Under the pieces are notes generated by a model, which was given only the letters and a program-made list of their open reading frames with translations, was not told the DNA's origin and ran no database searches. From positions 1-48,910 of the forward strand of contig CAIRLC010000008.1 in the NCBI GenBank assembly GCA_903879335.1: a stretch of 48,910 nucleotides of DNA, in the 5' to 3' direction. This document shows, piece by piece, positions 25,123 to 41,057 of the stretch. The number at the start of each line of letters is the position of its first letter. Positions within the stretch are counted from its first letter, which is position 1. The translations under genes and the position numbers were made by a program. This DNA comes from an uncultured Pseudomonadota bacterium. Lineage in GTDB: Bacteria; Pseudomonadota; Gammaproteobacteria; Steroidobacterales; Steroidobacteraceae.

Positions 25123-25124
25123 GC

Positions 25125-26433: not shown

Positions 26434-26451
26434 AAACAAGCATGACTGTTT
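26434..26451. promoter_or_regulatory. TetR-regulon operator 1 in a divergent promoter
   Basis: AAACAAGCATGACTGTTT is the reverse complement of AAACAG-TCATGC-TTGTTT, one copy of the 18-bp recurring palindrome. Rightward, CTGTTT (26446-26451) is 17 bp from TATAGT (26469-26474), ahead of the GST-like gene. Leftward, TTTCTT (26436-26431) is 17 bp from TATACT (26413-26408), ahead of the Rieske cluster. One bound repressor would cover both -35 elements. Confidence 0.75.
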
Positions 26452-26509
26452 TTTTGAACCTCGGCCGCTATAGTGTGGCCATCGCCACCGGCTGACCGCA
26501 GGCTCCCGC

Positions 26510-27433
26510 ATGTCTGACCTCATTCTGCACCACTTTGACCTGTCACCGTTCGCCGAAAAAGTGCGGCTTATGCTTGGGTTAAAACAGTTGTCCTGGCGCT
26601 CGGTTGAGATTCCGATGGTGATGCCGAAGCCGGATCTCATCGCACTGACCGGCGGCTATCGGAAGACCCCAGTCCTGCAAATCGGCGCTGACGTGTACTG
26701 CGACACCCGCCGCATCGCCCGCGAACTGGAGCGCCGCTTCCCCTCCCCCAGTCTATTCCCGCAGGGCGGTGGGCCCTTGGTCGAGGCCTTATCCGCCTGG
26801 AGTGACCGCGTCTTCTTCGATCCGGGTGCTGGCCTTGCGATGGGCACCAATCAGGCGCTGATCCCGGCCCCCGTGCTGGAGGACCGCAAAGCTTTTTTCA
26901 ACTTCATGGACTTCGCGAATCTGGAGGCCGACCTGCCGCACCTTTACTCCCAGGTGGCGGTCAGCTTAGATCTCGTCGACCGGCAACTGGAGTCGGGGCG
27001 GGATTTCCTCAGCGGCGATGCCCCCGGCTTGATCGATATACAGGCCTATTTCCCCCTCTGGATGCTGCGTGGCAACGTGGCCCGCACGCCCGAATTGGTG
27101 GCTGGACGCGCACGTCTACTGGCTTGGGAACAACGGATGCAGCGAGTCGGGCATGGTGACCGTCGCCCATGCACGAGCGCGGAGGCCCTCGCCATCGCCC
27201 AGCAGGCGACCAGCACCAGTGAGAGCGCGGTTGATCCGAAGGACCCCTTAGGGCTCGCGGCAGAAGATCGGGTCACCGTCACGCCGGATGACTATGGCCG
27301 AGTGCCCGTGGATGGCGCGTTGGTCGGCTTAAGCACGCAGGACGTCTCCATCCGTCGCCACGACGACCGCGCCGGCACCGTGGTCGTGCATTTCCCCCGC
27401 GGCGGCTATCGTATCGACCGTGTCAACGGCTAG
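26510..27433 (+). CDS. Glutathione S-transferase family protein with C-terminal extension
   Basis: This 307-residue protein has a thioredoxin-like N-terminal GST domain (ILHHFDLSPFAEKVRLMLGLK, RKTPVLQIGADVYCDTRRIARELER) and a helical C-terminal domain to about residue 225. An extra segment of about 80 residues (about 228-307; GLAAEDRVTVTPDDYGRVPVDG, VVVHFPRGGYRIDR) looks like a small beta domain. The -SPFAEKVR- site has Ser where some classes have the catalytic residue. Its promoter overlaps the TetR-type operator at 26434. Roles in these settings include glutathione-dependent isomerisation, ether cleavage or detoxification; none is proven. Confidence 0.87.
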   Translation: MSDLILHHFDLSPFAEKVRLMLGLKQLSWRSVEIPMVMPKPDLIALTGGYRKTPVLQIGADVYCDTRRIARELERRFPSPSLFPQGGGPLVEALSAWSDRVFFDPGAGLAMGTNQALIPAPVLEDRKAFFNFMDFANLEADLPHLYSQVAVSLDLVDRQLESGRDFLSGDAPGLIDIQAYFPLWMLRGNVARTPELVAGRARLLAWEQRMQRVGHGDRRPCTSAEALAIAQQATSTSESAVDPKDPLGLAAEDRVTVTPDDYGRVPVDGALVGLSTQDVSIRRHDDRAGTVVVHFPRGGYRIDRVNG

Positions 27434-27452
27434 ACCCCGCGTGCCTGCCCAC

Positions 27453-28643
27453 TCAGACGATCGCTCGAGCCCGCAAATCAGCAATCGCGGCCTCGTCGTA
27501 GCCGAGTTCGCGCAAAATGTCCGCGGTGTGCTCACCGATGGTCGGCGGGCGCTGGCGGATTCCGCCCGGTGTGCGGGTCAAACGAATCGGCAAATCGACC
27601 ACCTGTGCCGGACGCGGCAGGCCGGGGTAATCCACGGCCGTAAAGAGACCGAGCGCCGCCGCCTGCGGATCATCCAAGGCTTCTTGGGGGCTCTGCACGG
27701 CGCCAGCGGCCAAGCCTGCAGACTCCAGCGCCGCGAGGGCGTCTGCCGTGGTGCGTTCACCGCACCATTCGCGCATCCGCGCCAAAATAGGTCCACTGTG
27801 GTCGGCCCGCGATTGATCCGTCTGATACAACGGATTCCCAGTCCAGCCCGCCTCATCTCCCATCAATTTCGCCCAACGCCGAAACAGACCATTACCGACG
27901 CAGTGCACGAGCACGTGACCGTCGCGCGTGGCAAACAAATCAGAAGGCGCCGAGGTCTGCACCTGATTGCCGGTGCCCTGCCGATTGATACCGGTGACGC
28001 TCTGCTCAATGAGGTGGGAGTTGAACACCGCGAGCGCCGAACCGAGCAAGGTCGCATCAACACGCTGACCCTGCCCAGAGCGATCTCGTTCCAACAGCGC
28101 GGCCAGTGCGCCGAACGCCGAGAGCACAGCCGTGGTGAAGTCCACGTAAGGAGCCGCGGCTTTGGCGGGATGCCCCGGTGTGCCGGTGATCACCATGGCA
28201 CCCGACAGCGCCTGACCGACCCCATCGAAACCGCCGCGGCGTGTATAAGGACCCACATCCCCGAACGCAGATTGAGTCACGAGAACGGCGCGCGGGTTCA
28301 ATGCCAGCACGCTCGCCTCATCGAGGCCCATGGCCGTCAACGCCAGCGGCGGCAAGTTCGCCACCACGACATCCGCGGTCTTGACCAATTCGGCGATGAT
28401 TTTGCGCCCCTCGGGTGTACCCGGATTGAGCGTCAGCGAGCGCTTGTTGCTGCCCGTTTGCAGAAATACGGCACCCTCGCCGCTCGGAGTGACCGGCGCA
28501 ATGAAGCGATCCTCGCCGCCTTCACGGCGCTCAATGCGGATGACATCCGCGCCCAAATATCCCAGCAGCGTCGCGCAGTAAGGCCCGGCCACATAGCGAC
28601 CAAAATCCAGCACTCGGATGCCCGACAACACGGCGTTCGTCAC
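27453..28643 (-). CDS. Class III (CaiB/BaiF family) CoA-transferase, third paralogue
   Basis: This 396-residue protein opens with LSGIRVLDFGRYVAGPYCATLLGYLGADVIRIE. It contains GQRVDATLLGSAL and the catalytic Asp expected in APYVDFTTAVLSAFG. It is a full-length family member, convergent with the GST-like gene (19 bp apart) and divergent from the acyl-CoA dehydrogenase at 28831. It likely activates a carboxylic acid in the same pathway as that dehydrogenase. No copy of the TetR palindrome is seen in the 187-bp gap to 28831. Confidence 0.92.
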   Translation of the reverse strand: MTNAVLSGIRVLDFGRYVAGPYCATLLGYLGADVIRIERREGGEDRFIAPVTPSGEGAVFLQTGSNKRSLTLNPGTPEGRKIIAELVKTADVVVANLPPLALTAMGLDEASVLALNPRAVLVTQSAFGDVGPYTRRGGFDGVGQALSGAMVITGTPGHPAKAAAPYVDFTTAVLSAFGALAALLERDRSGQGQRVDATLLGSALAVFNSHLIEQSVTGINRQGTGNQVQTSAPSDLFATRDGHVLVHCVGNGLFRRWAKLMGDEAGWTGNPLYQTDQSRADHSGPILARMREWCGERTTADALAALESAGLAAGAVQSPQEALDDPQAAALGLFTAVDYPGLPRPAQVVDLPIRLTRTPGGIRQRPPTIGEHTADILRELGYDEAAIADLRARAIV

Positions 28644-28830
28644 GTTATATTACTCCACGGTCTACGCTCACCCACTCAGCGAAGGATCATGTCACAAGCC
28701 CTCAATCAGGGCGAACCACTTCGCATTAGCGCGTGCTCTGTTCATCGGTTGAGACCGTGATGATGAGTGCGAATCGCAGCCGAACCGCACGATTACTTTA
28801 GTGTCCCGTTACGCCTAGGAAATACAGATC

Positions 28831-29991
28831 ATGGATTTTCAGCTCACCGAAGAACAAGCAGCACTGCAGCAAGCGGCACGACGCTACGCGCAAGAGCGGC
28901 TACCCAAGATCGCAGAAGAACTCGAAGCCTCGGGCGAACCACCGTCGCACGAACTGGTGCACGAATACGCGGAAATGGGGTTCTTAGGCATCAACATCCC
29001 GGAATCGCTGGGCGGCATGGGGCTTGGCAATCTTGAGGCCTTACTGGTCGTGGAAGAGTTCGCCAAGATCTCTTCGGCTGTCGCCTTCCCGGTCTTTGAA
29101 TCCTGTGTCGGGCCAGTCCGCGCCATCGAACGCTTTGGCAGCCGTACCTTGGCCGAACGCGTGGTGCCGGCCGTATGCCGCGGTGAAACCGTGGTTGCCG
29201 TCGCGATGAGCGAGCCGCAAGCGGGCTCTGCATTGACCGATCTGACCACGCGCGGCGTTGTAGATGAAACCGGCGTCACGCTGAACGGCACCAAACGTTG
29301 GTGTTCCGGCGGCGGCCACGCAAACGGTTACGTCGTCTACTGCCGTCTGTCTGAGGATGCCGGCGCGAAAGGCATCGGTGCGGTCTATGTCGAAACCGGG
29401 ACGCCGGGTCTGTCCTTCGGTACACCTGAGGCGCTGATGGGTTTCCGCGGTGTGCCGTCGGCGGATCTGTACTTCGACAACGTGCGCGTACCCCTCGACC
29501 ACATCGTCGTCCCCGCCGGCGGATTCAAGAAACTGATGGAAGCCTTCGATCTCGAACGCTGCGGCAATGCCACAATGTCGCTGGCACAAGCCGCCGGTTC
29601 GCTCGAGGACGTGTTGAGTTACGTCCAAGAGCGCCAACAGTTCGGCCGTCCACTGGTTGACTTTCAAGCCGTGCAGATCAAGTTAGCGGAAATGCAGATG
29701 CGCGTGGATGCTGCTCGACTGTTGATCCATCGAGCCGCCTGCAACGCCGAAAAAGGACTGCCGAGCATCATCGATTCGTCGATCGCCAAGTGTTTCGCCA
29801 ACGAAATGTCGCGTGAGGTCTGTGGCAACGCCATGCAACTCATGGGCGCCTATGGCTATTCGAAGGCGTACCCGATGGAGCGCCGACTGCGCGACTCCTG
29901 GGGTTGGGGTATCGCCGGTGGCGCCGTGGATATCCAAAAGATCAACATCACGGCGGCCTTGGTGGGGCGTCGCTTCGATCAACGCCGATGA
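28831..29991 (+). CDS. Acyl-CoA dehydrogenase with IVD/LCAD-type catalytic Glu position
   Basis: This 386-residue flavoprotein has AMSEPQAGSALTDL (middle-domain signature), the FGRPLVDFQAVQIKLAEMQ helix and QLMGAYGYSKAYPMERRLRD. The usual catalytic Glu site (EGT) reads A-G363-G-A, so it is lost. E242 in EAFDLERCGNA sits where isovaleryl-CoA and long-chain dehydrogenases carry their base. That suggests a branched or bulky acyl-CoA substrate. The AGGAAA ribosome site fixes the start. The stop overlaps the VOC gene start (ATGA), so they are translated together. Confidence 0.92.
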   Translation: MDFQLTEEQAALQQAARRYAQERLPKIAEELEASGEPPSHELVHEYAEMGFLGINIPESLGGMGLGNLEALLVVEEFAKISSAVAFPVFESCVGPVRAIERFGSRTLAERVVPAVCRGETVVAVAMSEPQAGSALTDLTTRGVVDETGVTLNGTKRWCSGGGHANGYVVYCRLSEDAGAKGIGAVYVETGTPGLSFGTPEALMGFRGVPSADLYFDNVRVPLDHIVVPAGGFKKLMEAFDLERCGNATMSLAQAAGSLEDVLSYVQERQQFGRPLVDFQAVQIKLAEMQMRVDAARLLIHRAACNAEKGLPSIIDSSIAKCFANEMSREVCGNAMQLMGAYGYSKAYPMERRLRDSWGWGIAGGAVDIQKINITAALVGRRFDQRR

Positions 29992-30515
29992 GTCGCTACG
30001 TCGGTCCGATACTGCAAAACGGTTACGTCGTGCGCGATTGGCGCGCGGCGGCGGAGCACTGGGTTGACGTCTATGGCGTTGGACCCTTCTTCGTCATGGA
30101 GCATATCGAATTCGCCACCTGCAACTACCGTGGCAGGCCTTCAAAGATCGACATGAGCGTGGCGATCGCGTACTCGGGTGATTTACAGATCGAACTGGTC
30201 CAGCAGCACAACGATAGCCCGTCGATCTACCTGGACCATCTGAGCCGTTATGGGGAAGGCCTGCAGCATGTGGGCGCACTCGTTGACGACCTGGATGCCG
30301 TCATCACGGCCCAGCACTGGCAGACACGCGTTGTTCAGGATGGCGCCACGACCGTCGGGCAGCGCTTTGCTTATCTCGATATCGGCACACATCCGGGCAG
30401 CATGCTCGAACTGATTGAAGCCACCCCGGCCGCGCGCTCAGCCTTCGACTACATGCGCAGTACCGCGCGCACCTGGACTGGCGATCGTCCGATCCGACTG
30501 CCGAAGCCGGCGTAA
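29988..30515 (+). CDS. VOC-superfamily protein, paralogue of the 17111 gene
   Basis: This 175-residue protein has two VOC modules: NGYVVRDWRAAAEHWVDVYGVGPFFVMEH with a strand LQIELVQQHND, then LQHVGALVDDLDAVITAQ and GSMLELIE. It shares the GxGPFxxxEH and xELxxQHxDxPS patterns with the VOC protein at 17111. The ATG lies inside the acyl-CoA dehydrogenase stop (ATGA), which shows coupling. The coupling to an acyl-CoA dehydrogenase suggests it acts on the same acyl-CoA series, perhaps as an epimerase-like or lyase-like enzyme. Not further assignable. Confidence 0.87.
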   Translation: MSRYVGPILQNGYVVRDWRAAAEHWVDVYGVGPFFVMEHIEFATCNYRGRPSKIDMSVAIAYSGDLQIELVQQHNDSPSIYLDHLSRYGEGLQHVGALVDDLDAVITAQHWQTRVVQDGATTVGQRFAYLDIGTHPGSMLELIEATPAARSAFDYMRSTARTWTGDRPIRLPKPA

Positions 30516-30539
30516 TTTTGTCGGCTCAGTGCTGAAGCC

Positions 30540-30854
30540 TTAGGAACCCAGCTCAACTTCGATCCAACCGTCCAAGATACGCGTTGGATACGCGCGCTGT
30601 GGGTCACGGGCCGGTAACGCCAAGACCGCACCGGAACGACAGTCGAACGACGCGCCGTGCAGTGGACAAATCACCCGCACGCCGCGCAAGCGGCCTTCGG
30701 ACAAGCGCGCCGCGCCATGGGTACATTGGTTGTCCATGGCGTACAGGCCATCCTTGGTCCGCACCAACACGAGGTCAAGCCCGTTCAGTACTAGACCACG
30801 CATCTGCCCTTCAGCCAGATCAGCCTCGGCCAAGGCGCGGTGAAATGTCGGCAT
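30540..30854 (-). CDS. Rieske [2Fe-2S] ferredoxin
   Basis: This 104-residue protein of ferredoxin size has C44-T-H46 and C63-P-L-H66 in NQCTHGAARL and VICPLHGASF, the classic Rieske ferredoxin spacing. It would carry electrons from a reductase to a Rieske oxygenase. It is the only small ferredoxin in the window against three oxygenase alpha genes, and no ferredoxin reductase is visible. It is divergent from the acyl-CoA synthetase gene; the shared gap holds the best copy of the TetR-type operator (30923-30940). Confidence 0.92.
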   Translation of the reverse strand: MPTFHRALAEADLAEGQMRGLVLNGLDLVLVRTKDGLYAMDNQCTHGAARLSEGRLRGVRVICPLHGASFDCRSGAVLALPARDPQRAYPTRILDGWIEVELGS

Positions 30855-30922
30855 CTGTTCCGTCTCCCGTCCAACGGGCGTTTTCGGCCCTTACCGACGC
30901 GCATGGTACGCGCGCAAATAAG

Positions 30923-30940
30923 AAACAGTCACGCCTGTTT
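30923..30940. promoter_or_regulatory. TetR-regulon operator 2 ahead of the acyl-CoA synthetase
   Basis: AAACAGTCACGCCTGTTT is the best copy of the palindrome; with one more base each side the arms are GAAACAG and CTGTTTC. A -35-like TTTCTT (30938-30943) overlaps its right arm and is 17 bp from TAGTAT (30961-30966), followed by the synthetase gene at 31020. The ferredoxin gene on the other strand could also be under this site. Confidence 0.78.
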
Positions 30941-31019
30941 CTTTTAATTCCGTCGGCCGATAGTATCCACGCTATCGCGTACGGCTACGTCGGCCGATCA
31001 GCGTTGAGGGGAATTTGGT

Positions 31020-32774
31020 ATGGCCGTCAAAAAATCCAAGACTGTAAAAAAATCCACCCAGAAGGGCGCGCGAGCCCCCGCCGGCGCATCGGCTAAAGCC
31101 CCACTCTGGCGCCCCGCGAAAGAGGACCTTGCTTCGATCCGTATTGCCGTCACCACCATCGGTGATTTGTTACTGACCGCCGCTGACCGCCACCCCGATG
31201 ACGATGCGATCGTCTTCCCTGATCAAAAAATCAGTTATGGCGAACTCGCGGCTCGTGCGATCGAACGTGCGCGCGGCTTGCAAGCGATCGGCGTCACGCC
31301 ACGCAGCCATGTGGGTCTATTACTGCCGACCTGCTTAGAATTTGTTGAATACTTCTTTGCGATCGCGCTGTGTGGTGCGGTTGCAGTCCCCATCAATGCC
31401 CGTTATCGCGCGCACGAACTTCGTTACGTGGTCGAGAACGGCGACCTCGTGACGGTGATCACCACGAGTGAAGTGCCTGAGCAGGTCAACTTCATCGAGC
31501 GTCTACTGACGGCGATGCCCTCCCTGGCGGGTCAGGAAGATCCACGCCAGTTACACCTGCCTGAGGCACCTAAGCTGCGCAATATCGTGGTCCTCGGCAA
31601 GCCAGGCCCAGCGGCGTTCCTCACGGCGAAGGCGTTTCTCAAACTCGCTAAGACCGTGAAAGCGGAAGCGGTACATCGCGCGCGCCTTGGAGTACGCGTG
31701 CGCGACGTCGGACTGATGCTCTATACCTCGGGGACCACCGCAAACCCCAAAGGGTGTTTGATCTCGCACGAAGCGATGGTTCGCAACTCGATCGCACTGG
31801 GTCGTCACCGTTATCAGCTGCGCTACGGCGACCGTTTCTGGTCGCCGCTGCCGCTATTCCATATCGCCGGCATCTTGCCGATGCTTGCGACCTTCGATGT
31901 TGGCGGTGCTTATCTCACGATGGCGTTCTTTGAAGCAGGCAAAGCGCTGCGCATGCTCGCCGAGGAACGCGTCAGCGCCACCTATCCCTGTTTTGTAACG
32001 ATCATGTCGGATCTCATCTATCACCCGGATTTTAAGAAGACCGATCTGTCACGGATCCGTCTCATGAACTCCAACTTCGCCGTGCAACCGGCGGGTATAC
32101 GCGATGCGATGCTCAAAGCGATGCCGAACGCCATTCAAGTGGGCACCTTTGGCATGACCGAAACCGCCGGCACCGTGACCACGAGCATGCTGACCGACCC
32201 GCTCGGCCAACGCACGGGCCGCCTCGGTAAGCCCCTGCCGGGCATCGAAGTGCGCATTATCGACCACGATACCGGCTTGAATGTCCCGCCGGGCGTGCGC
32301 GGCGAAGTGCTCGTCCGTGGCTACAGCACGCTCGAGGGCTATTACAAGGATGCCGAAAAGACCGCCGCCGCCATCGATGCAGACGGGTGGTATCACACTG
32401 GCGACGTGGGTTCGATCGACGCGGCCGGCACCATGATGTTTCATGGGCGCACGAAAGACATGCTGAAGGTCGGCGGTGAAAACGTCGCTGCAGCCGAAAT
32501 CGAGGCGAGCCTACAGCGCCATGAGGCCGTTAAGCTCGCGCAGGTTGTCGGCATCCCGGACGCCCGTTATGCCGAGGTTCCGGCTGCTTTTGTTGAATTA
32601 AAGCCGGGCGAAGTGGCGACACCGCAAGAATTGATCGCCTTCTGTAAAGCCGAGATCGCGGCCTTCAAAATTCCGCGACACATCCGCTTTGTGACCGAAT
32701 GGCCGATGTCGACCAGCAAGATCCAGAAGTTCCGGTTGCGGGATCAACTCCTGAAGGAACTTGATCTGGGCTAA
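31020..32774 (+). CDS. AMP-dependent acyl-CoA synthetase
   Basis: This 584-residue ANL-family ligase has the ATP/AMP motif LMLYTSGTTANPKG (about 240-253), GTFGMTETAG, YHTGDVGSIDAAG and GRTKDMLKVGGENV. The catalytic Lys lies in PMSTSKIQKFRLRD. The Lys- and Ala-rich first 30 residues (MAVKKSKTVKKS...) form a basic, probably disordered extension before the enzyme core. It activates a carboxylic acid to its CoA thioester with ATP, the likely entry step of the regulon's pathway. The ribosome site is GGGGAA. The promoter carries the best operator copy. Confidence 0.94.
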   Translation: MAVKKSKTVKKSTQKGARAPAGASAKAPLWRPAKEDLASIRIAVTTIGDLLLTAADRHPDDDAIVFPDQKISYGELAARAIERARGLQAIGVTPRSHVGLLLPTCLEFVEYFFAIALCGAVAVPINARYRAHELRYVVENGDLVTVITTSEVPEQVNFIERLLTAMPSLAGQEDPRQLHLPEAPKLRNIVVLGKPGPAAFLTAKAFLKLAKTVKAEAVHRARLGVRVRDVGLMLYTSGTTANPKGCLISHEAMVRNSIALGRHRYQLRYGDRFWSPLPLFHIAGILPMLATFDVGGAYLTMAFFEAGKALRMLAEERVSATYPCFVTIMSDLIYHPDFKKTDLSRIRLMNSNFAVQPAGIRDAMLKAMPNAIQVGTFGMTETAGTVTTSMLTDPLGQRTGRLGKPLPGIEVRIIDHDTGLNVPPGVRGEVLVRGYSTLEGYYKDAEKTAAAIDADGWYHTGDVGSIDAAGTMMFHGRTKDMLKVGGENVAAAEIEASLQRHEAVKLAQVVGIPDARYAEVPAAFVELKPGEVATPQELIAFCKAEIAAFKIPRHIRFVTEWPMSTSKIQKFRLRDQLLKELDLG

Positions 32775-32786
32775 ATCAGCCAATCA

Positions 32787-32816
32787 CCTGCGCGCGATGG
32801 ATCCATCGCGCGCAGG
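32787..32816. terminator. 30-bp perfect palindrome between convergent genes
   Basis: Bases 32787-32816 read the same on both strands (outer CCTGCGCGCG, centre TGGATCCA). The palindrome lies 12 bp after the synthetase stop and 26 bp before the E2 stop. It can form a very stable stem in either transcript and probably ends or protects both, but there is no T-run after it on either strand. Confidence 0.5.
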
Positions 32817-32842
32817 CTGCCCAGTGCCTTGGGGCGTAAAAC

Positions 32843-34066
32843 TCAGAGCGTCGCGGGCTGCGCCAGTCGTTGCGCCAGCGTCTCAAGGAATGCGGCACCC
32901 ACCGCACCATCGATCACGCGATGATCGGCCGAGAGTGTGAACGTGCACACCGTGCCGGCCGCGAGTACGCCCTCCTGAACCACTGCGGCCGCACGCACGG
33001 CGCCCACCGCGAGAATCGCGACCTGCGGCGGGTTGATGATGGCATCGAAGCGATCGAGCCCGTACATCCCTAAATTCGAGACCGTAAAGGTCGCGCCCTC
33101 AATTTCACTGCGCTGCAATTTGCCGGCGCGGGCCCGCTCCGCCAGGTCGCGTGAGGCGGCGCCGATCGCGGCCACGGATTGTGACTCCACCGCGCGCAAC
33201 ACAGGCGTCAGCAAGCCTGAAGGCGTGGCCACTGCGATGGCCACATCCGCTTCACCGTAGCGAATCACGTCATCACCCACCAGGTGAGCGTTCAATGCTG
33301 GGTGCGCGATGAGACTCAGTCCAACCGCTCGCACGATCAAGTCGTTGACCGAGACTTTCGCACCACCCGCTGCATTCAATGCCGCGCGATGCGCCAATAA
33401 CGATGAAACCTCCACCGTACGCTCGAGCCGGTAGTGTGGAAGGCTCTGCTTGGATTCCAGCAAGCGCCGCGCGATGGCTTGACGCATCGGCGTGAGGCGC
33501 TCGCGCGTGGCCGGGTTGACGTGCGCCGCTGTCGTGCCGGCAGCTGCGGCAGCAAAGGTCTCAACGTCCTCTTTGGAGATGCGTCCATTGGGGCCGGTGC
33601 CCGTGATGAGCGAAAGATCAATACCGAGCTTGAGCGCGAGTTTGCGTGCGATTGGGCTGACTCGGCCTTCAGTCTCGACACCCTCAGCTGGCGCAGACGA
33701 GACCGTCGGGGGCGGCTCAACCGGCGCTGCGGCAGGTACTTCGGTTACACCACCGGGCTCAAAACTGGTTTCGGCAGGCTTGAATGCCGCGATGAAGGCG
33801 TCAATCTCATCCTCGCTGACGGAGGCGTCAGCATAGACGGCGAGCAAGGCTCCGACCGCGTAGGACGAGCCGTCCTCTGCCAGAATACGCCGCAGCGTAC
33901 CGGCATACGGCGACTCGACGGCATTGACGATCTTGTCAGTCTCGACATCGAGCAGTGGATCACCCACGGCCAGGGTCTCCCCCACTCGCGCAGTCCAACC
34001 CGTGATCAAGCCTTCCTGCATCTCGATACCCCACTTGGGCATCGTGATCGCGCGCACGTTCGACAT
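32843..34066 (-). CDS. Dihydrolipoamide acyltransferase (E2) of a 2-oxoacid/acetoin dehydrogenase complex
   Basis: This 407-residue protein has one lipoyl domain (about 1-80, lipoyl Lys in VETDKIVNAVESPYAG), an Ala/Pro/Glu-rich linker and a peripheral subunit-binding domain (about 135-172: SPIARKLALKLGIDLSLI, GRISKEDVE). The C-terminal catalytic core holds DHRVIDGAVGAAFL (active His and Asp). It moves an acyl group from E1 to CoA. It is the third gene of the E1alpha-E1beta-E2 operon, 5 bp after E1beta. No E3 gene is present, so the complex probably borrows the cell's common E3. Confidence 0.94.
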   Translation of the reverse strand: MSNVRAITMPKWGIEMQEGLITGWTARVGETLAVGDPLLDVETDKIVNAVESPYAGTLRRILAEDGSSYAVGALLAVYADASVSEDEIDAFIAAFKPAETSFEPGGVTEVPAAAPVEPPPTVSSAPAEGVETEGRVSPIARKLALKLGIDLSLITGTGPNGRISKEDVETFAAAAAGTTAAHVNPATRERLTPMRQAIARRLLESKQSLPHYRLERTVEVSSLLAHRAALNAAGGAKVSVNDLIVRAVGLSLIAHPALNAHLVGDDVIRYGEADVAIAVATPSGLLTPVLRAVESQSVAAIGAASRDLAERARAGKLQRSEIEGATFTVSNLGMYGLDRFDAIINPPQVAILAVGAVRAAAVVQEGVLAAGTVCTFTLSADHRVIDGAVGAAFLETLAQRLAQPATL

Positions 34067-34071
34067 CGTCT

Positions 34072-35082
34072 TTACTCCTGCATGACTTTGCGGATCGCCG
34101 CTTCAATGCGCTGCGGACTTGGTACATAAGCACGCTCGAGCTCGCGTGCAAACGGCACCGGCGAATGCGGTGCGGTCACGATCCCAATCGGAGCCTTGAG
34201 GAATCTGAATCCCTGAGACGCCACCTGGGCGGCAATATCCGCCGCAACACTGCAGCGCGGTGGTGATTCGTCGACGATCACCAATCGTCCGGTGTTCTCA
34301 ACACTTTCCAGAATCGTATCCAGATCCAACGGCGACGTCGTTCGAGGATCAATTAGGTCGCAGGTGATGCCATCTTTTTCGACTGCATCAATGGCCTTCT
34401 CGGCGAACACGACCATGCGGGCGATCGCCACCACCGTGACGTGCTCACCTTCACGAACCAGTGCCGCTTCACCGAAAGGAATGGTGTAATCACCGTCCGG
34501 CACTTCACCCTTGCGGGGATACAGCGCCTTATGTTCGAAGAACATGACTGGATCATCACCGCGCAGTGCCGTCAGCATCAATCCTTTCGCATCGTAGGCG
34601 TTGGACGGAACGACAACCTTGAGGCCGGGGACCGAGGTCAACAGCGGATAGATCGTCTGCGAATGCTGCGCACCCATGTTCATGCCGGCGCCCATGGCCA
34701 ACCGCACCACGGCAGGACAGGTGGTGCGACCGCCGAACATGTAGCGGAACTTCGCCATCTGATTAAAGATTTGGTCGAGGCTCACGCCGACGAAGTCGGC
34801 GAACATCAATTCAGCCACCGGCCGCAACCCGGCCAACGCAGCGCCCGCGGCGGCGCCGATAATCGCGGACTCGGAGATCGGTGTATCAATCACCCGGTGA
34901 TCACCAAACTTCGGCAATAGCCCTTTGGTGATGCCGAAAATGCCGCCGGAGGCTTCGCGCTGGCCGGAGGTGCCGCCGGCACCGCCGGAGACGTCTTCGC
35001 CGAGCACAATGATGTTCGGATTACGGGCCATCTCCAGATGCAGCGCATCGTTAATGGCATCACGCATAGATTTCTGGGACAT
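34072..35082 (-). CDS. TPP-dependent dehydrogenase E1 beta subunit (AcoB/PdhB-like)
   Basis: This 336-residue protein has the transketolase-like layout of E1 beta: MRDAINDALHLEMARNPNIIVLGEDV, DTPISESAIIGAAAGAALAGLRPVAE, QIFNQMAKFRYMFGG and SVPGLKVVVPSNAYDAKGLM. It forms the alpha2beta2 E1 that decarboxylates a 2-oxoacid or cleaves acetoin with TPP. The insert GGAGGTSGQREASGG between the first strand and the GITKGL segment is typical of the acetoin-dehydrogenase-like branch. It lies 7 bp downstream of E1alpha. Confidence 0.93.
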   Translation of the reverse strand: MSQKSMRDAINDALHLEMARNPNIIVLGEDVSGGAGGTSGQREASGGIFGITKGLLPKFGDHRVIDTPISESAIIGAAAGAALAGLRPVAELMFADFVGVSLDQIFNQMAKFRYMFGGRTTCPAVVRLAMGAGMNMGAQHSQTIYPLLTSVPGLKVVVPSNAYDAKGLMLTALRGDDPVMFFEHKALYPRKGEVPDGDYTIPFGEAALVREGEHVTVVAIARMVVFAEKAIDAVEKDGITCDLIDPRTTSPLDLDTILESVENTGRLVIVDESPPRCSVAADIAAQVASQGFRFLKAPIGIVTAPHSPVPFARELERAYVPSPQRIEAAIRKVMQE

Positions 35083-35089
35083 AGCGGCC

Positions 35090-36076
35090 TCAGTACGCGA
35101 CGTAGACGTCGGTGGTCAATTCAGACTCTGCCGGCGGCGGCGCTTGGCGAGCTTCAGCGACCGACCGATCAATCAGGGCGAGTACATCCGCATCAATGGC
35201 ATCGAGATCATGCTCGCTCAGACCGCGCTGTGTCGCTGTCCGCCTAAAGATCGACAAGCAGTCCATGCTTTCGCGCTGACGCTTGACCTCATCCTTCGCA
35301 CGATAGAGCTGCGGGTCACCTTCGAAGTGACCATAAAAGCGGGTTGCAATCGCTTCGATCGCGAAGGGGCCGTGACCGCCTCGAGCGTGTGCCAAGGCCC
35401 GACCCATCGCCGCATAGACCGCATGAAAATCGGTTCCGTCAACCTTCTCGACCGGCATTCCGAAGGCCGCTGCGCGGCCCGCAATGTCTTTCGAGCCGAC
35501 GGCATAATCAACGCCCGTATGCTCGCTGTAGCCGTTATTTTCGTAGATGAAGATGGTGGGTACTTTGAGCACCACCGCAAGATTCATGGCCTCAAATACC
35601 GTCCCTTGATTGCAACTGCCGTCGCCTGCAAAGGCCACCGACACGGTGCCATCACCGCGATTGCGACAGGCTATTGCGGCGCCCACCGCGATGGGCGGAC
35701 CACCGCCGACGATCGCATTAGCGCCGAGCATTCCCTTGCTGAAGTCGGCAATGTGCATGGAGCCACCCTTGCCCTTGCAGAGGCCGGTCGCCCGACCGTA
35801 GATCTCATGCATCATTCCCGCGACATCGCAGCCCTTGGCGATGCAATGGCCATGACCCCGGTGCGTGCTGACAATGTAATCGTTGAGGCCCAAGTGCTCA
35901 CAGACGCCGACGGCGATCGCTTCCTGACCTGAGTACAGATGCGTGAAGCCCGGGATTTCGCCGGTCTGAATCTCGACGTGGAGGCGTTCTTCGAATTCGC
36001 GGATGGTTCGCATCTTGCGATACGCCTCGAGCAGGCGCTCGGAGGACGGCGGCGACTCGACGGTCTCAGTACTCAA
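35090..36076 (-). CDS. TPP-dependent dehydrogenase E1 alpha subunit (AcoA/PdhA-like)
   Basis: This 328-residue protein carries the TPP motif AFAGDGSCNQGTVFEAMNLA ... ENNGYSEHTG and the phosphorylation-loop-like RFYGHFEGDPQLYR. The frame begins at a TTG at 36076 with AGGGAG seven bases upstream, which I accept as the start; the next ATG is M22. The operon order E1alpha-E1beta-E2 without E3 resembles acetoin dehydrogenase and branched 2-oxoacid dehydrogenases. A degenerate copy of the TetR palindrome lies 105 bp upstream (36181-36198). Confidence 0.92.
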   Translation of the reverse strand: MSTETVESPPSSERLLEAYRKMRTIREFEERLHVEIQTGEIPGFTHLYSGQEAIAVGVCEHLGLNDYIVSTHRGHGHCIAKGCDVAGMMHEIYGRATGLCKGKGGSMHIADFSKGMLGANAIVGGGPPIAVGAAIACRNRGDGTVSVAFAGDGSCNQGTVFEAMNLAVVLKVPTIFIYENNGYSEHTGVDYAVGSKDIAGRAAAFGMPVEKVDGTDFHAVYAAMGRALAHARGGHGPFAIEAIATRFYGHFEGDPQLYRAKDEVKRQRESMDCLSIFRRTATQRGLSEHDLDAIDADVLALIDRSVAEARQAPPPAESELTTDVYVAY

Positions 36077-36180
36077 GGTGCGCTCCCTAGAGAGAAATTA
36101 ATGCACGCTCGCGAGGCGCAACGGCCAAGCGTAGCGGTACTCTAAGCGTGCACGGTAAAACATTCAATTCTGACGGTTAC

Positions 36181-36198
36181 CAACAGGCGTGATTTTTT
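36181..36198. promoter_or_regulatory. Degenerate TetR-regulon operator ahead of the E1/E2 operon
   Basis: CAACAG-GCGTGA-TTTTTT is the reverse orientation of the palindrome: the left arm matches five of six, the centre equals TCACGC on the other strand, and the right arm is a T-run instead of CTGTTT. It lies between the Rieske gene stop (36233) and the E1alpha start (36076). The promoter elements are poor, so function is uncertain. Confidence 0.45.
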
Positions 36199-36232
36199 TT
36201 CGGCACATGAAAGCTAGGACGAGCACGCCGCC

Positions 36233-37591
36233 TCAGGTCTGCGCGGTCGGCCCGCCGGCCAGATAGTCGTCTAAGACCTTGTGGAAGTGGCGGATCCGCA
36301 GTTCTTGCTGGCCCAGCCATAAGCCATCAAAGCCGGCCGAGTGCATACCGGCCTGTACACCTGGCAGATTGTGCGCATCTTGATCGAGCACCAGGCCGAT
36401 CGATTTATCACCGTGCTGCACGTGTTGGTGCCGCGGCCGATCCGGCCATGGCGCACCGTCGGCGATCAACTCGAAGGTCCAGATGTCGTAGTACATCCGG
36501 TTTGGATCCGTTTCATGCGGGCGCTGTCGGAACAGCATCAGGTCGTCCGCGTGGGTGTTCAGCGTGACGTTCGGGAAAATCAGATAGTGATAATCATCCG
36601 TCAGCTGATCGTCGTTCAGACCCGAGTAATCCTTACCCTGAGCCGCCCCGTGCTTGCGCTTCCATTTCTGCACGTCGCGACGGATGTTCTCGATCGGCTC
36701 ATCGTAATCAGCCGGGTCCATCCCCGCTGCCTTCATGATCACCTTGATCGGATCCGGGATCGTGTTCGGTTTGCGCACCCGCGGTGAAAGTGTGCCAAAG
36801 GGGATCAGATAACGATTGTGACGCTCATAGGTATCGATCTGCAGATCGAGGTCATGCAGGTACCACATCAATTGCGGGTGGATACCCTGCACGTGGTAGC
36901 TCTCGTTAAAGGCATCCACCGACGCCTTCCAGTTGCAGTCCCACTCAACCGTGATATCGCGCGTCATGGCCATTTTAGCGAAGTTATACGGCGCCAAATG
37001 CTTGTCGACGGGGTCCAGGTATTCACTCAGCGGGCCGGCCTCAGGATTGAGGCTGAACCAGACGAAGCCGCCCCAGGCCTCACAGGGTAGTGAGCGGATG
37101 CCCTTGCACGGCGGCGGGCCTTGCACAAAGGTATCCAAGTCAGGAATACGCAGGAATGAGCCGTCCAGGTCGTATTCCCAATGGTGGTACTGACACTTGA
37201 ACGAGTCGCCACTGCCGGTGCCTTCAGGGCGCAGGCGATTGCCTCGATGCAGGCAGACGTTATAGAACGCCTTCAAGGAGCCGTCGCGCTGGCGCACGAT
37301 CAACACGGACTCCTTACCCAAGTGCGTCGCCACGTAATCACCGGGCTCCGCGAGGTCACGCTCCCAGCCTCCCAGCAGCCAGACCTTGGTCCACATGCGC
37401 TCCCACTCAAGCTGCATAAACTGCGCCGAGGTATAGCGCTCTTTGGCGATTGGCGCGTGCCCGAGTTCTGGATCCGGCGTCTTATCGACCGGCGTGACCG
37501 GACTTTCGGCGGGCGTGACACGCCGCACCTTCTTGTACTTGGGGGTCGCAGACGCTGCGTACAGCGCTTCCTTTGATGAGTCGGTCGACAT
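36233..37591 (-). CDS. Rieske non-heme iron oxygenase alpha subunit (C)
   Basis: This 452-residue protein has the Rieske motif NVCLHRGNRL ... KCQYHHWEYDL and an iron site in NWKASVDAFNESYHVQGIH. It is paralogous to oxygenase A at 19554 (same length, shared FMQLEWERMWTKVWLLGG pattern). I start at the ATG at 37591; the frame extends further to a TTG inside the ThuA-like gene. It is the third gene of the operon SDR, ThuA-like, Rieske, whose promoter carries the operator at 39210. Confidence 0.92.
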   Translation of the reverse strand: MSTDSSKEALYAASATPKYKKVRRVTPAESPVTPVDKTPDPELGHAPIAKERYTSAQFMQLEWERMWTKVWLLGGWERDLAEPGDYVATHLGKESVLIVRQRDGSLKAFYNVCLHRGNRLRPEGTGSGDSFKCQYHHWEYDLDGSFLRIPDLDTFVQGPPPCKGIRSLPCEAWGGFVWFSLNPEAGPLSEYLDPVDKHLAPYNFAKMAMTRDITVEWDCNWKASVDAFNESYHVQGIHPQLMWYLHDLDLQIDTYERHNRYLIPFGTLSPRVRKPNTIPDPIKVIMKAAGMDPADYDEPIENIRRDVQKWKRKHGAAQGKDYSGLNDDQLTDDYHYLIFPNVTLNTHADDLMLFRQRPHETDPNRMYYDIWTFELIADGAPWPDRPRHQHVQHGDKSIGLVLDQDAHNLPGVQAGMHSAGFDGLWLGQQELRIRHFHKVLDDYLAGGPTAQT

Positions 37592-37610
37592 CACTCGTCT
37601 CCCTCGCCGT

Positions 37611-38357
37611 TCAGGCGCGCTCTGCCATCCACGCAAGACCCCGACGCAGCAGCGTCTGGAAGGCCGGTGTCGGCCAACTGCCCCGCTCCTCGTTCGGATA
37701 CTCCGCCATCAACGGCTGCATGTCATAGCGGCTGCGGGCGTGACCGAGCGTGAAGTACAACACGGACCCGGCTTCGATACGCTTTAGATACAGCACGGGA
37801 CGCAGGTCATCGCCCGACCAGTCCGCTTCCACAAAACCCGGCGTCATGCCGGTAAAGCGCGTATGCAGCAGCACTTCGAGGGGCGGATGCAACTCCGACA
37901 AATACAGTTCATCGTCAGCCGTGAACGGCTCGATACCCGCCACGAGCGGATGATCCCGCGCGGTGACCTCAACGGTGTACGGCGCAATGGGCGGATGCGC
38001 GATGAACTGGCTGCCCAGGGTCTGCATGTACAACGGCGCCGAACGCGGCGCATCCCAACCTTTGCCCTTCACATACTTGAGCACCGAGTTGGTTCCGTGC
38101 AAAGCAAACCAACGGCGCCCGCCCGCTACAAACTGGCGCAGACGCTCGGCGCCGACCTCGTCAGGTAACAGGTCCACCGTATAGGTCAGCAGGCAGTCCG
38201 CGGCAGTGATCTCGTCGATGGCGCTGTAGTCTGCATAGACCTTGGTCCGCAGATGCGGCGTCTCCAACAGCGCCTGCAGAATCTGCGCGCGCGCGTAGTC
38301 AATGTCGTGGTACTTGCCACCACAGACGAACGCGACATTGACACGCCCGTGAGCCAT
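37611..38357 (-). CDS. ThuA-like domain protein
   Basis: This 248-residue protein has the ThuA (class I amidotransferase-like) pattern: VNVAFVCGGKYHDIDYARAQIL, TYTVDLLPDE, GGRRWFALHGTNSVL, HPLVAGIEPFTADDELYLSE, VLYFTLGHARSRYD and a final TPAFQTLLRRGLAWMA. The family is linked to sugar utilisation and to some catabolic operons; its reaction is unknown. It starts 4 bp after the SDR stop and ends 19 bp before the Rieske start, so it is part of the same operon. Confidence 0.87.
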   Translation of the reverse strand: MAHGRVNVAFVCGGKYHDIDYARAQILQALLETPHLRTKVYADYSAIDEITAADCLLTYTVDLLPDEVGAERLRQFVAGGRRWFALHGTNSVLKYVKGKGWDAPRSAPLYMQTLGSQFIAHPPIAPYTVEVTARDHPLVAGIEPFTADDELYLSELHPPLEVLLHTRFTGMTPGFVEADWSGDDLRPVLYLKRIEAGSVLYFTLGHARSRYDMQPLMAEYPNEERGSWPTPAFQTLLRRGLAWMAERA

Positions 38358-38361
38358 GCGC

Positions 38362-39123
38362 TTAGTACCGCACGCCCTTGGTAAAGCCGTTATCGGCGAC
38401 GATATTCGCCCCGGTGATCAGGCTGGAGGCGGGACTGGCGAGGAAGGCCACCACACGCGCCACTTCGTCCGGAACGCCAAAGCGACCCGACGGAATCGCA
38501 CGCAAGGTGCTGTCATAAAACTTCTGATTGGTGCCCTTGATCATCTCCCAGGCGCCACCTTCGAAATAGATGGGGCCCGGTGAGACGGCATTGACGCGCA
38601 CGTTGTGCTTACCCACAAACTGCGACAACTGCTTGGCGTAGGTGATCAGCGATGCCTTCATGGCGTTGTAGGCCATTGGGGCTGCGAAGGTCTCGATGGC
38701 GTTGGTCGAGCTGATGATGACCACAGAGCCTTGACCGGAGGCCTTGAGCGCATCCATCAGGGTTTCGCAACCCCGCACGGTGTGCAGCACGTCAATCTCG
38801 AAGTTCTTCCACCAGTTCTTCTCAGAATCCATGCCGCCACCGGCACTGACGTTGGGGACGAACACATCGCAGCCACCCAGCGCCGCAGCAGTCTCCGTGA
38901 GCCACGCCTTGTAGGCGTCACCGTCGCGGACGTTGACCGCCCCGCCGACCACGTTGACGCCCTTCGCCTGCAGCGAGCGGGTTGTTTCTTCGACCTCGTC
39001 CTCGCTACGCGCGCAAAAGCCGATGTCCGCGCCTTCCGACGCCAGCAATTCCACGATCGCCCGACCAATGCCTTTGGTGGCGCCGGTCACAATGGCTTTC
39101 TTGCCTCTGAGCTGCAAATCCAT
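38362..39123 (-). CDS. Short-chain dehydrogenase/reductase
   Basis: This 253-residue SDR has AIVTGATKGIGRAI near the N terminus, SAGGG at the NNAG position, VVIISSTNAIE and Y-x3-K in MAYNAMKASL. It has GRFGVPDEVARVVAFLASP and a final DNGFTKG. I start at ATG 39123, the usual distance before the glycine motif; the longer frame covers the promoter. It is first in the SDR-ThuA-Rieske operon and has the palindrome at 39210 and TATACT (39188-39183) upstream. Confidence 0.92.
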   Translation of the reverse strand: MDLQLRGKKAIVTGATKGIGRAIVELLASEGADIGFCARSEDEVEETTRSLQAKGVNVVGGAVNVRDGDAYKAWLTETAAALGGCDVFVPNVSAGGGMDSEKNWWKNFEIDVLHTVRGCETLMDALKASGQGSVVIISSTNAIETFAAPMAYNAMKASLITYAKQLSQFVGKHNVRVNAVSPGPIYFEGGAWEMIKGTNQKFYDSTLRAIPSGRFGVPDEVARVVAFLASPASSLITGANIVADNGFTKGVRY

Positions 39124-39209
39124 GTCGAACTCCCGTACTGCTCGCTGACGCTGAGGGGGCTCTGTATACCCCGATAGCATCCAGTATAGGCGCCCCTAGG
39201 ACTTCATAT

Positions 39210-39227
39210 AAACAGTCAGGACTGATT
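39210..39227. promoter_or_regulatory. TetR-regulon operator 3 ahead of the SDR-ThuA-Rieske operon
   Basis: AAACAGTCAGGACTGATT matches the palindrome with changes in the centre (TCAGGA) and one arm base. On the minus strand it lies next to a TATACT -10 element (39188-39183), so it covers the -35 zone. The geometry is like that at 26434, 30923 and 41040. Confidence 0.68.
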
Positions 39228-39250
39228 TTTTTATAATTCGCTGGCCAGAC

Positions 39251-39283
39251 TGCAAGCCCCGACTGTCGCAGTCGGGGCTTGCA
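39251..39283. terminator. 15-bp perfect hairpin after SDR gene
   Basis: Arms TGCAAGCCCCGACTG (39251-39265) and its complement (39269-39283) surround a TCG loop. It begins 4 bp after the stop of the SDR at 39287 on the minus strand. No T-run follows directly, so it may be an RNA-protecting stem or a Rho-assisted terminator. Confidence 0.55.
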
Positions 39284-39286
39284 CCA

Positions 39287-40045
39287 TCACTGGATCGTCA
39301 GTGCGTTGTCGATCAATAGCTCGGTGCCGTTGATGAAGCGCGACTCTTCAGAGGCCAGGAAGAGCACGAGATTGGCAATATCCTCAGGCTTACCCAGCCC
39401 CTGCGGACTTTGGTGGTACATGTCCATCGTCATACCCAACTCATGCGTGGCATTGACGACCATGGCGGTCTCCATCGCGCCGGCATGGATCGAGTTGCAG
39501 CGAATATTGTACTTCTGCATCTGACACCACACGGCCACCGACTTCGTCATCGAACGAACCGCCCCTTTGGCCGCTCCATAGGCGTGGAACACCGGGTAGC
39601 CCAAATGGGAGGCCGTGGAAGACATATTGATGATCGAACCACCGCCGCTATCTTTCATCGGACCCAGAGCGTGTTTGCAGGCCAAAAACACGCTCTCGGA
39701 GAGGACGGCCTGGTGGCGCCTAAAGTCCTCCAGCGAGGCAGACTCCGGGGTGCCGATCTTCACCATGCCGGCATTGTTCACGAGGATATGCAGGCCGCCG
39801 AAGTGGGCTTTGACCGCCGCGAGCGTATCGATCCAAGCCTGCTCGTCGCACACGTCCTGTCGCAAGAACAGGACGGCGCCCGGATGTGTCGCATTGAGTT
39901 CAGCCGCGAGCGCTTCGCCCGCCGCCACGTTGATATCGGTAATGCATACCTTCGCGCCCTCGCGCACCAGCGCGATGGCGTCGGCCCGACCGAGCCCCGT
40001 CGCTCCGCCGGTAATGAGTGCTACTTTGCCGCTAACCCGACCCAT
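39287..40045 (-). CDS. Short-chain dehydrogenase/reductase
   Basis: This 252-residue classical SDR has VALITGGATGLGRADA (about 8-23), LVNNAGMVKIG, INMSSTASHLG and the Y-x3-K motif in HAYGAAKGAV. It has MYHQSPQGLGKPEDIANLVLFLASEE and a final LLIDNALTIQ. I start at ATG 40045, the normal distance before the glycine motif. It is divergent from the TetR gene; a half-site of the palindrome lies at 40120 between them. It probably catalyses an alcohol oxidation in the same pathway. Confidence 0.91.
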   Translation of the reverse strand: MGRVSGKVALITGGATGLGRADAIALVREGAKVCITDINVAAGEALAAELNATHPGAVLFLRQDVCDEQAWIDTLAAVKAHFGGLHILVNNAGMVKIGTPESASLEDFRRHQAVLSESVFLACKHALGPMKDSGGGSIINMSSTASHLGYPVFHAYGAAKGAVRSMTKSVAVWCQMQKYNIRCNSIHAGAMETAMVVNATHELGMTMDMYHQSPQGLGKPEDIANLVLFLASEESRFINGTELLIDNALTIQ

Positions 40046-40119
40046 AGTTGGTTCCCCTCGAGGCTGTGTTCTGTCTTGGTAAAAGGCCCCACGGCCGAGA
40101 CCGCAGTAGAGACGGACGC

Positions 40120-40177
40120 TAACAGTCACGTCGTACGGTTTCAATCACCGTTGACTTTTTCAGACAGGGCTTACATT
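40120..40177. promoter_or_regulatory. tetR/SDR divergent region with operator half-site
   Basis: TAACAGTCACGT (40120-40131) matches the left arm and centre of the palindrome but lacks the right arm. For tetR a -35-like TTGACT (40151-40156) and a -10-like CATTCT (40174-40179) are 17 bp apart. This is where autoregulation would act if the TetR protein owns the palindrome. Confidence 0.4.
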
Positions 40178-40229
40178 CTTTCGGGCCGCGCCGTGAGAGC
40201 GCTTGGCGATACCCTGCCCGAGGCAACCG

Positions 40230-40862
40230 ATGGTGAACGCAATGGACTCGGCCGCGGATCCGTCGGGGTGGCAAGCACAAAAAAGTGCGGCGACCCGCCG
40301 ACTGATACTCGACAGTGCCATCCGTCGTTTCGTTGAACTGGGCTATGCGCGCACAACCACCACCGCGATTGCCGAGGAAGCGGGTTTGTCGCGTGGCGCG
40401 ATGCTGCATCACTTCCCGTCAAAAATCGACGTGGTCAAGGGCGCCATCGAATATCTGCACAGCAAGCGCCTGAAGGCGTTTCGGCGGGCCATGAGTCGGC
40501 CCATCGATCCCACCGAGGATCGGATCATGCTGGCCGTGCGCGCCTTCTGGGAGCATGTTCAGCACCCCATGTTCGTGGCTTTTTTCGAATTATCGGTCGC
40601 TGCTCGCACCGACCCGGAATTGGCAGCGATCCTTCGCCCGTCGCAGGAGGCCTTCGAGCGGGAATGGTATGCGACAGCGCGGGACGTGTTTCCGGAATGG
40701 GAAAACGCCGGCCCACAGTTCGATCTTGCCCTTAATTTGTCGCGCTTTGTCTTAGAAGGCATGGCGGTCAGCTTTATGACTCAAGCCGACGCGGCACAGG
40801 GTGAACGCCTCTTGGTGTATTTGGCGGATAAGTTGCGGGAACTGCGCAGCAGCTCGCCATAA
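40230..40862 (+). CDS. TetR/AcrR-family transcriptional regulator
   Basis: This protein of about 210 residues has an N-terminal TetR helix-turn-helix (ATRRLILDSAIRRFVELGYARTTTTAIAEEAGLSRGAMLHHFPSK) and a helical ligand domain. The ATG at 40230 has GAGG seven bases upstream; the frame runs back to a TTG at 40203 and forward to M at 40242. It lies between the SDR at 39287 and the TonB receptor gene. It is the only TetR protein in the window and therefore the best candidate to bind the recurring 18-bp palindrome, releasing it on binding a pathway acyl-CoA or substrate. Confidence 0.9.
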   Translation: MVNAMDSAADPSGWQAQKSAATRRLILDSAIRRFVELGYARTTTTAIAEEAGLSRGAMLHHFPSKIDVVKGAIEYLHSKRLKAFRRAMSRPIDPTEDRIMLAVRAFWEHVQHPMFVAFFELSVAARTDPELAAILRPSQEAFEREWYATARDVFPEWENAGPQFDLALNLSRFVLEGMAVSFMTQADAAQGERLLVYLADKLRELRSSSP

Positions 40863-41039
40863 CCGCGGAACCACCGGATTGCTGCACTGCGCCACGAGCA
40901 TCGCAACATCGGCGCAATCGTTGTAATTTTGCAACATCATTCCGACCGATCCCCTGCAGCGGGCCCGGGCGGGCTGCCAAGACTGAGATCGGTGGGCCAA
41001 TGGCAAAATTCCCGCCACAAACGCTCTGATTCCAAAACG

Positions 41040-41057
41040 AAACAGTCACGCTTGTTT
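41040..41057. promoter_or_regulatory. TetR-regulon operator 4 ahead of the TonB receptor
   Basis: AAACAGTCACGCTTGTTT differs from the best copy at one arm base. TTGTTT (41052-41057) also works as a -35, 16 bp from TAGTAT (41074-41079). The TonB-dependent receptor gene starts at 41147, giving a leader of about 65 nt. Confidence 0.75.

Follow-up and report, generated by a model that had tools for sequence, protein, structure and literature searches.

A palindrome conserved before catabolic genes of Steroidobacteraceae is the probable operator of a TetR-family regulator

In a 48,910-nt stretch of DNA from an uncultured Pseudomonadota bacterium of the family Steroidobacteraceae (GenBank assembly GCA_903879335.1, contig CAIRLC010000008.1; this whole stretch is referred to as the window), the same 18-bp dyad recurs in front of uptake, activation and oxygenation genes, raising the question of which protein, if any, binds it and with what effect. 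An earlier note, made from the letters of the window, proposed a dispersed regulon of the TetR type, with the one tetR gene in its midst encoding the regulator. Comparison with related genomes points the same way: the dyad consensus, the palindrome AAACAGTCATGACTGTTT, is very probably the operator of the TetR-family protein encoded at 40230..40862 (+), likely a repressor of the pathway promoters.

With up to three mismatches to the pattern given in the earlier note, the dyad had eight strand-matches at five places in the window (26434, 30923, 36181, 39210 and 41040), compared to a mean of 0.05 strand-matches in 100 shuffles. The copies at 26434, 30923 and 41040 had no mismatches and those at 39210 and 36181 had three each. 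The search thus recovered all four copies described as strong (26434, 30923, 39210 and 41040), along with the weaker one at 36181, and the dyad is, as had been noted, all but invisible elsewhere in the window. A further copy placed at 40120 was rejected: it was not recovered at three mismatches and its register was wrong, the conserved feature at this position being a degenerate double operator at 40124-40160 (see below). A genome-wide scan had been proposed as a check. In the host genome (3,138,180 bases in 46 contigs), only 26434, 30923 and 41040 were found at up to two mismatches, and raising the limit to three added one place outside the window, with three mismatches; the reversed control gave five matches. 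A looser palindromic pattern was matched without mismatch at the four strong sites only, with one mismatch at four more places and with two at 21 (including 36181), for a total of 29 compared to six for the control; 24 of the 29 places lie off the window.

The four strong sites face the following genes. The predicted operator at 26434..26451 (unstranded) lies in the divergent promoter of the gene for the RieskeB oxygenase alpha subunit (25125..26354, -), the first of a minus-strand run towards HMGS-OB, thiolase and SDR2, and the gene for a glutathione S-transferase-like protein (GST; 26510..27433, +). That at 30923..30940 (also unstranded) lies between the divergent genes for a Rieske-type ferredoxin (30540..30854, -) and an AMP-binding acyl-CoA synthetase (31020..32774, +). 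The predicted operator at 39210..39227 (-) precedes the SDR3-ThuA-RieskeC operon, which comprises genes for the SDR3 dehydrogenase (38362..39123, -; ATG at 39123), a ThuA-domain protein (37611..38357, -) and the RieskeC oxygenase alpha subunit (36233..37636, -; open reading frame limits, start codon not assigned), and that at 41040..41057 (+) precedes the gene for a TonB-dependent outer-membrane receptor (41147..43624, +).

For a view of these sites in relatives, 217 genomes of the family were compared. RieskeB orthologues, chosen by protein alone, were present in 41 of the genomes, and using a matrix built from the four window sites, we found a site of at least 18 bits within ~400 bp upstream of the best copy in 39 of the 40 other genomes (the miss is G080), with a control of 0. 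Second RieskeB copies (L282-L289, from G097 and seven genomes for which two copies were listed) had such a site in none of eight cases at 18 bits and in one of eight at 14; these copies may serve another pathway or regulator. We then counted sites of at least 14 bits by the same matrix within 300 bp upstream (400 bp for TonB) of each gene on 29 contigs with a TetR gene from other genomes, region extents having been chosen partly with the motif places in view. The fractions were highest for RieskeB (14/14), GST (10/10), TonB (18/19) and SDR3 (19/24), followed by the AMP ligase (9/17), ferredoxin (10/20), CMD (4/12), SDR2 (3/11), E1-alpha (5/21), the PQQ enzyme (3/15), SDR4 (4/28), TetR (4/29) and the operon-interior E2 (1/20). 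On the same contigs, no site preceded the operon-interior genes RieskeC (0/22), ThuA (0/24), E1-beta (0/21), ACADb (0/18), CoATc (0/16), Glyox2 (0/16), Thio2 (0/13) and SDR1 (0/11), or HMGS-OB (0/4), Glyox1 (0/3) and RieskeA (0/2), and the complemented control was 0. Mean information was 1.5-1.8 bits in the site and 0.25-0.65 in the flanks, with 0.9-1.1 for the four E1-alpha cases, a contrast that arises partly by construction, as the sites were picked by score.

The earlier note had named many hits at random coding positions as an outcome that would speak against a regulon. Regions from 29 of the other 46 genomes with a close TetR orthologue were merged, together with the window, into 44 loci; 14 of the 43 other loci lack TetR and were chosen for motif matches, so that fractions over all 43 are biased upwards for some genes. 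None of the 95 distinct sites of at least 18 bits in these 43 loci fell in coding matches, which cover 55% of the sequence, and on the 29 TetR contigs the corresponding numbers were 0 of 78 sites and 60%. A test by open reading frames placed 48 of the 95 sites inside frames and has little meaning, since such frames cover 94% of this G+C-rich DNA. These counts bear on the simplest alternative, that the dyad serves no regulator and has arisen by chance, as a repeat or as part of a terminator. T runs do often follow the dyad, and terminator-like matches were slightly above shuffles (16 compared to 11.5), but the upstream dyad of 39 of 40 RieskeB orthologues, its absence from most second copies, the lack of sites in coding matches and the empty complemented control leave this explanation virtually no chance, and cross-species conservation in practice excludes it. 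Motif matches in the large genomes G167, G170, G171 and G174 were discarded: the perfect palindrome at up to three mismatches gives no places there. Taken with the sites before orthologous first genes, which persist after rearrangement, the comparison supports a dispersed regulon of the predicted kind.

The weak predicted operator at 36181..36198 (-; 14.2 bits) precedes the gene for E1-alpha of a 2-oxoacid dehydrogenase-type complex (35090..36076, -), which is followed by those for E1-beta (34072..35082, -) and the E2 acyltransferase (32843..34066, -). Some relatives have a better site in the corresponding place before E1-alpha (that of G106 scores 23.1 bits), and with a site before E1-alpha in five of 21 copies, the "possibly E1/E2" of the earlier note gains support. 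In some relatives, two operator-like copies stand in tandem at the E1-alpha promoter, ~19 bp from each other, with the second recognized partly by eye (G103:C6 60567 and 60586; G117:C1 117056; G139:C32 114390). The site at 36181 in the window resembles a decayed version of these tandem sites.

Which protein binds the sites? The open reading frame of the TetR-family protein begins at 40203, and the likely start is the ATG at 40230 or 40242. The protein contains an N-terminal TetR_N helix-turn-helix (PF00440, E 7.3e-13, 48.5 bits with a cut-off of 24), and its AlphaFold2 model (pLDDT 89.4) has nine helices, amounting to the all-helical TetR fold. Nearly all Foldseek matches listed for the model were TetR-type regulators (best E 2.7e-5, TM 0.58), KstR2 structures among them. 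All 16 NCBIfam TetR equivalogs listed at E 0.001 scored under their cut-offs, the best being the ScbR family (51.8 bits, cut-off 150); the protein likewise fails the curated cut-offs of AcrR, BetI, RutR, PsrA, CurR, FadR and others. The recognition-helix block AGLSRGAMLHHFPS is invariant among 28 TetRs, and a palindromic operator overlapping the target promoters, which is characteristic of the family, is predicted here by comparison.

The motif and this protein occur together. A close TetR orthologue (E <=1e-70) was encoded in 47 of the 217 genomes, including the window's (52 at E 1e-20). With up to two mismatches, the motif was present in 43 of these 47 genomes and in 24 of the 170 others (p 1.7e-23), and at least three strand-matches were found in 33 and four genomes, respectively; the reversed motif gave 6/47 and 15/170 (p 0.41). 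The same-genus genomes G102, G105 and G107 have no RieskeB at E 1e-130 and carry the TetR in another gene cluster with variant sites. A scan of a wider genome collection yielded 332 stretches encoding TetR relatives at E 1e-3, of which the best 80 were used. In the 45 resulting loci (L162-L206), a matrix trained on the family loci gave 59 matches of at least 18 bits compared to 0 for the control, with the reservations that matches may overlap and that at least seven of the 45 contigs had already been used. For TetRs of less than 50% identity, a site within 330 bp upstream of tetR was found with either matrix in six of 14 cases (control 0), and some of the distant lineages with a site at the tetR promoter have no Rieske cluster in the stretch examined. 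In the Halieaceae loci L199 and L206, no Rieske cluster was found in the stretches examined; the genes inspected there include those for a TonB receptor, OB-fold and SnoaL proteins, an acyl-CoA dehydrogenase, an aldehyde dehydrogenase, a molybdopterin enzyme and a luciferase-like enzyme, gene kinds partly shared with the window. In L204 (Novosphingobium sp. AAP83), a cluster resembling that of the window includes two TetR genes (48% and 41% identity), and all its sites are weak and diverged. We also noted that several public records of metagenome-assembled genomes that carry the TetR (L137, L152, L150, L156 and L187) are titled Klebsiella pneumoniae, Candidatus Planktophila, Janthinobacterium or Rhizobium, titles that look wrong.

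The sites could also be real operators of another protein, such as the AraC-like (13751) or GntR (4302) regulator, both encoded in the window, or a factor encoded elsewhere, and inheritance of the cluster as a unit would by itself yield part of the co-occurrence. We regard this as improbable: the 43 other loci, 29 of which carry TetR, contain no homologue of the AraC or GntR protein, some distant lineages (the six of 14 above) have a site on the tetR promoter itself, and a dyad that is compact and perfect is well suited to a TetR dimer.

The tetR promoter of the window, which is divergent from the gene for the SDR4 dehydrogenase (39287..40045, -; ATG at 40045 by reading), contains two degenerate predicted operators, O1 (40124..40141, +) and O2 (40143..40160, +), the latter starting 19 bp after the former and overlapping the TTGACT -35 of tetR. 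A TTGACTTT-type string was present in 52 of 82 distinct tetR upstream regions, and in most of these 52 we recognized, by eye, paired degenerate 18-mers with a 19-bp period (~ARTCAGNNNTGNCGGTTT, C, AATCAYCTTTGACTTTTT), the second over the TTGACT -35. The Woeseiaceae loci L192 and L193 have stronger tandem 18-mers in the same arrangement and with the same 19-bp period. A 22-bp spacing like that of CymR was considered for this promoter and dropped: judging by the L192 and L193 tandems, the 18-bp register suffices. Weak sites at its own promoter together with strong sites at the targets would fit mild autoregulation by TetR. A G+C-rich inverted repeat at ~39260-39287, between SDR3 and SDR4, is terminator-like and absent from the output of the terminator scan.

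Several observations weigh against TetR as the binder or against the breadth of the regulon. Forty of the 41 RieskeB genomes also have a close TetR, and because the cluster is inherited together in this way, co-occurrence of motif and TetR alone cannot assign the binder. Four of the 47 TetR genomes lack the motif at up to two mismatches, and eight of the 14 TetRs of less than 50% identity have no upstream site. The tetR promoter scores poorly by matrix, 14 bits being reached by four of 29 copies and 18 bits by two of 47 upstream regions of TetRs of at least 60% identity. The TetR regions examined in G192, G194, G197 and G205 are without a site of at least 13 bits, although a site does precede RieskeB in these genomes and SDR3 comes directly after SDR4 there. 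The footprints before ferredoxin, the AMP ligase and E1-alpha are about half or less, and since the genomes are related and divergent pairs share one site, the rows of this count are not independent. Operator conservation, co-occurrence and the sites at the tetR promoter in distant lineages nonetheless make the TetR protein the likely binder, and the assignment made in the earlier note finds support in the pattern over 217 genomes, the tetR-promoter sites and the missing AraC and GntR homologues.

How would binding affect transcription? In the window, every strong site has, in at least one direction, a -10-like hexamer (four or five of six letters) 16-21 nt beyond its right arm, the spacing of a -35, in agreement with the overlap described earlier. 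The site at 26434 is followed by TATAGT after 17 nt (+) and TATACT after 20 nt (-), and that at 39210 by TATACT after 21 nt. Among 106 site-direction pairs, 45 hexamers with at least five letters of TATAAT occurred 8-33 nt after the site, 44 of them at 16-21 nt, so that the right arm of the site would cover or touch the -35. The -35 hexamers over the sites are poor: of the promoters given by the consensus scan, two touch a site, in both cases 39210, and the region scanned had three matches, with a shuffle mean of 4.4. TetR might bind the sites and activate from poor -35 regions, as few consensus promoters and a preferred distance (29 of the 45 hexamers at 20-21 nt) would suggest. This preference weakens a reading with two modes of distance and adds some weight to activation. 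An activator, however, usually needs a fixed distance to the promoter and the distances still spread over 16-21 nt, the 26434 palindrome serves both directions (17 and 20 nt), and O2 covers a near-consensus -35 of tetR; we consider activation unlikely. Operators over the -35 suggest repression, and the spread of distances and the use of one palindrome for both directions would favor occlusion by a repressor.

We therefore picture a TetR dimer that would sit on each operator over the -35 and block RNA polymerase at some five promoter regions, RieskeB/GST, ferredoxin/acyl-CoA synthetase, E1-E2, SDR3-ThuA-RieskeC and the TonB receptor, and that may control its own promoter through the weaker double operator. 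TetR would be released by an effector, which is probably the substrate or else an acid or CoA ester of the pathway, and expression of the uptake, activation and oxygenation genes would then rise together.

The cluster offers a few clues to the substrate. The window encodes a fused isobutyryl-CoA mutase, IcmF (10156-13617, -; 1662 bits with an NCBIfam cut-off of 1500), which also lies near the TetR gene in several relatives. The pathway may thus release isobutyryl-CoA, and an isopropyl-bearing compound is therefore a possible substrate. Solved relatives of the RieskeB and RieskeC proteins are distant and various and provide no substrate name, and a PDB search with E1-alpha gave no match at E 1e-60. 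The HMGS-like/OB protein resembles PhlA-type enzymes; its open reading frame (23695-25404, -) overlaps RieskeB by 280 bp, and the true start is probably further in.

KstR and KstR2 are TetR repressors of mycobacterial cholesterol catabolism, and in regulons of the KstR type one palindrome is repeated at numerous promoters, those of genes for uptake, CoA activation and oxygenation. The predicted regulon resembles them in having one putative TetR repressor, a repeated palindrome and such targets. It differs in phylum and gene set, the KstR operator is unlike the window dyad, and the window TetR lies far under the KstR cut-off (NCBIfam NF033703; 20.9 bits, cut-off 280). CymR of Pseudomonas putida F1 is likewise a TetR-family repressor and controls an aromatic pathway. 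The operator of this p-cumate regulator, CuO, is AACAAACAGACAATCTGGTCTGTTTGTA (PMC12868391), with the same outer hexamers (AAACAG...CTGTTT); comparing the operators alone and by eye, the hexamers are 10 bp apart in CuO and six here. PheR of Sphingobium sp. SHPJ-2 too represses a ring-oxygenation operon and affects uptake functions, but belongs to the IclR family, with the core motif GCAACG and phenanthrene as effector (PMC13273656). Neither the literal consensus nor any account of the regulon or motif was found in the literature of one open-access library, in line with the earlier description of the regulon as apparently undescribed. We judge the predicted regulon to be a new one that would work like KstR-type catabolic regulons without being KstR.

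The main interest lies in a conserved operator with exchanged targets. Operator and TetR accompany a Rieske/E1-E2 cluster in Steroidobacteraceae and Woeseiaceae (and, with weak sites, in Novosphingobium), and other catabolic genes in G102, G105, G107 and the Halieaceae. There is perhaps an even chance that one old TetR lineage has held on to nearly the same operator through an exchange of its targets, constituting a portable sensor and switch module; if so, the TetR/operator pair could serve in the search for a ligand class common to these clusters. A catabolic cluster of largely uncultured environmental bacteria, found mostly in metagenome-assembled genomes, gains a candidate regulator, operator and gene set, and the operator helps to assign scattered genes to the pathway, including those on other contigs, and offers a reporter for substrate screening.

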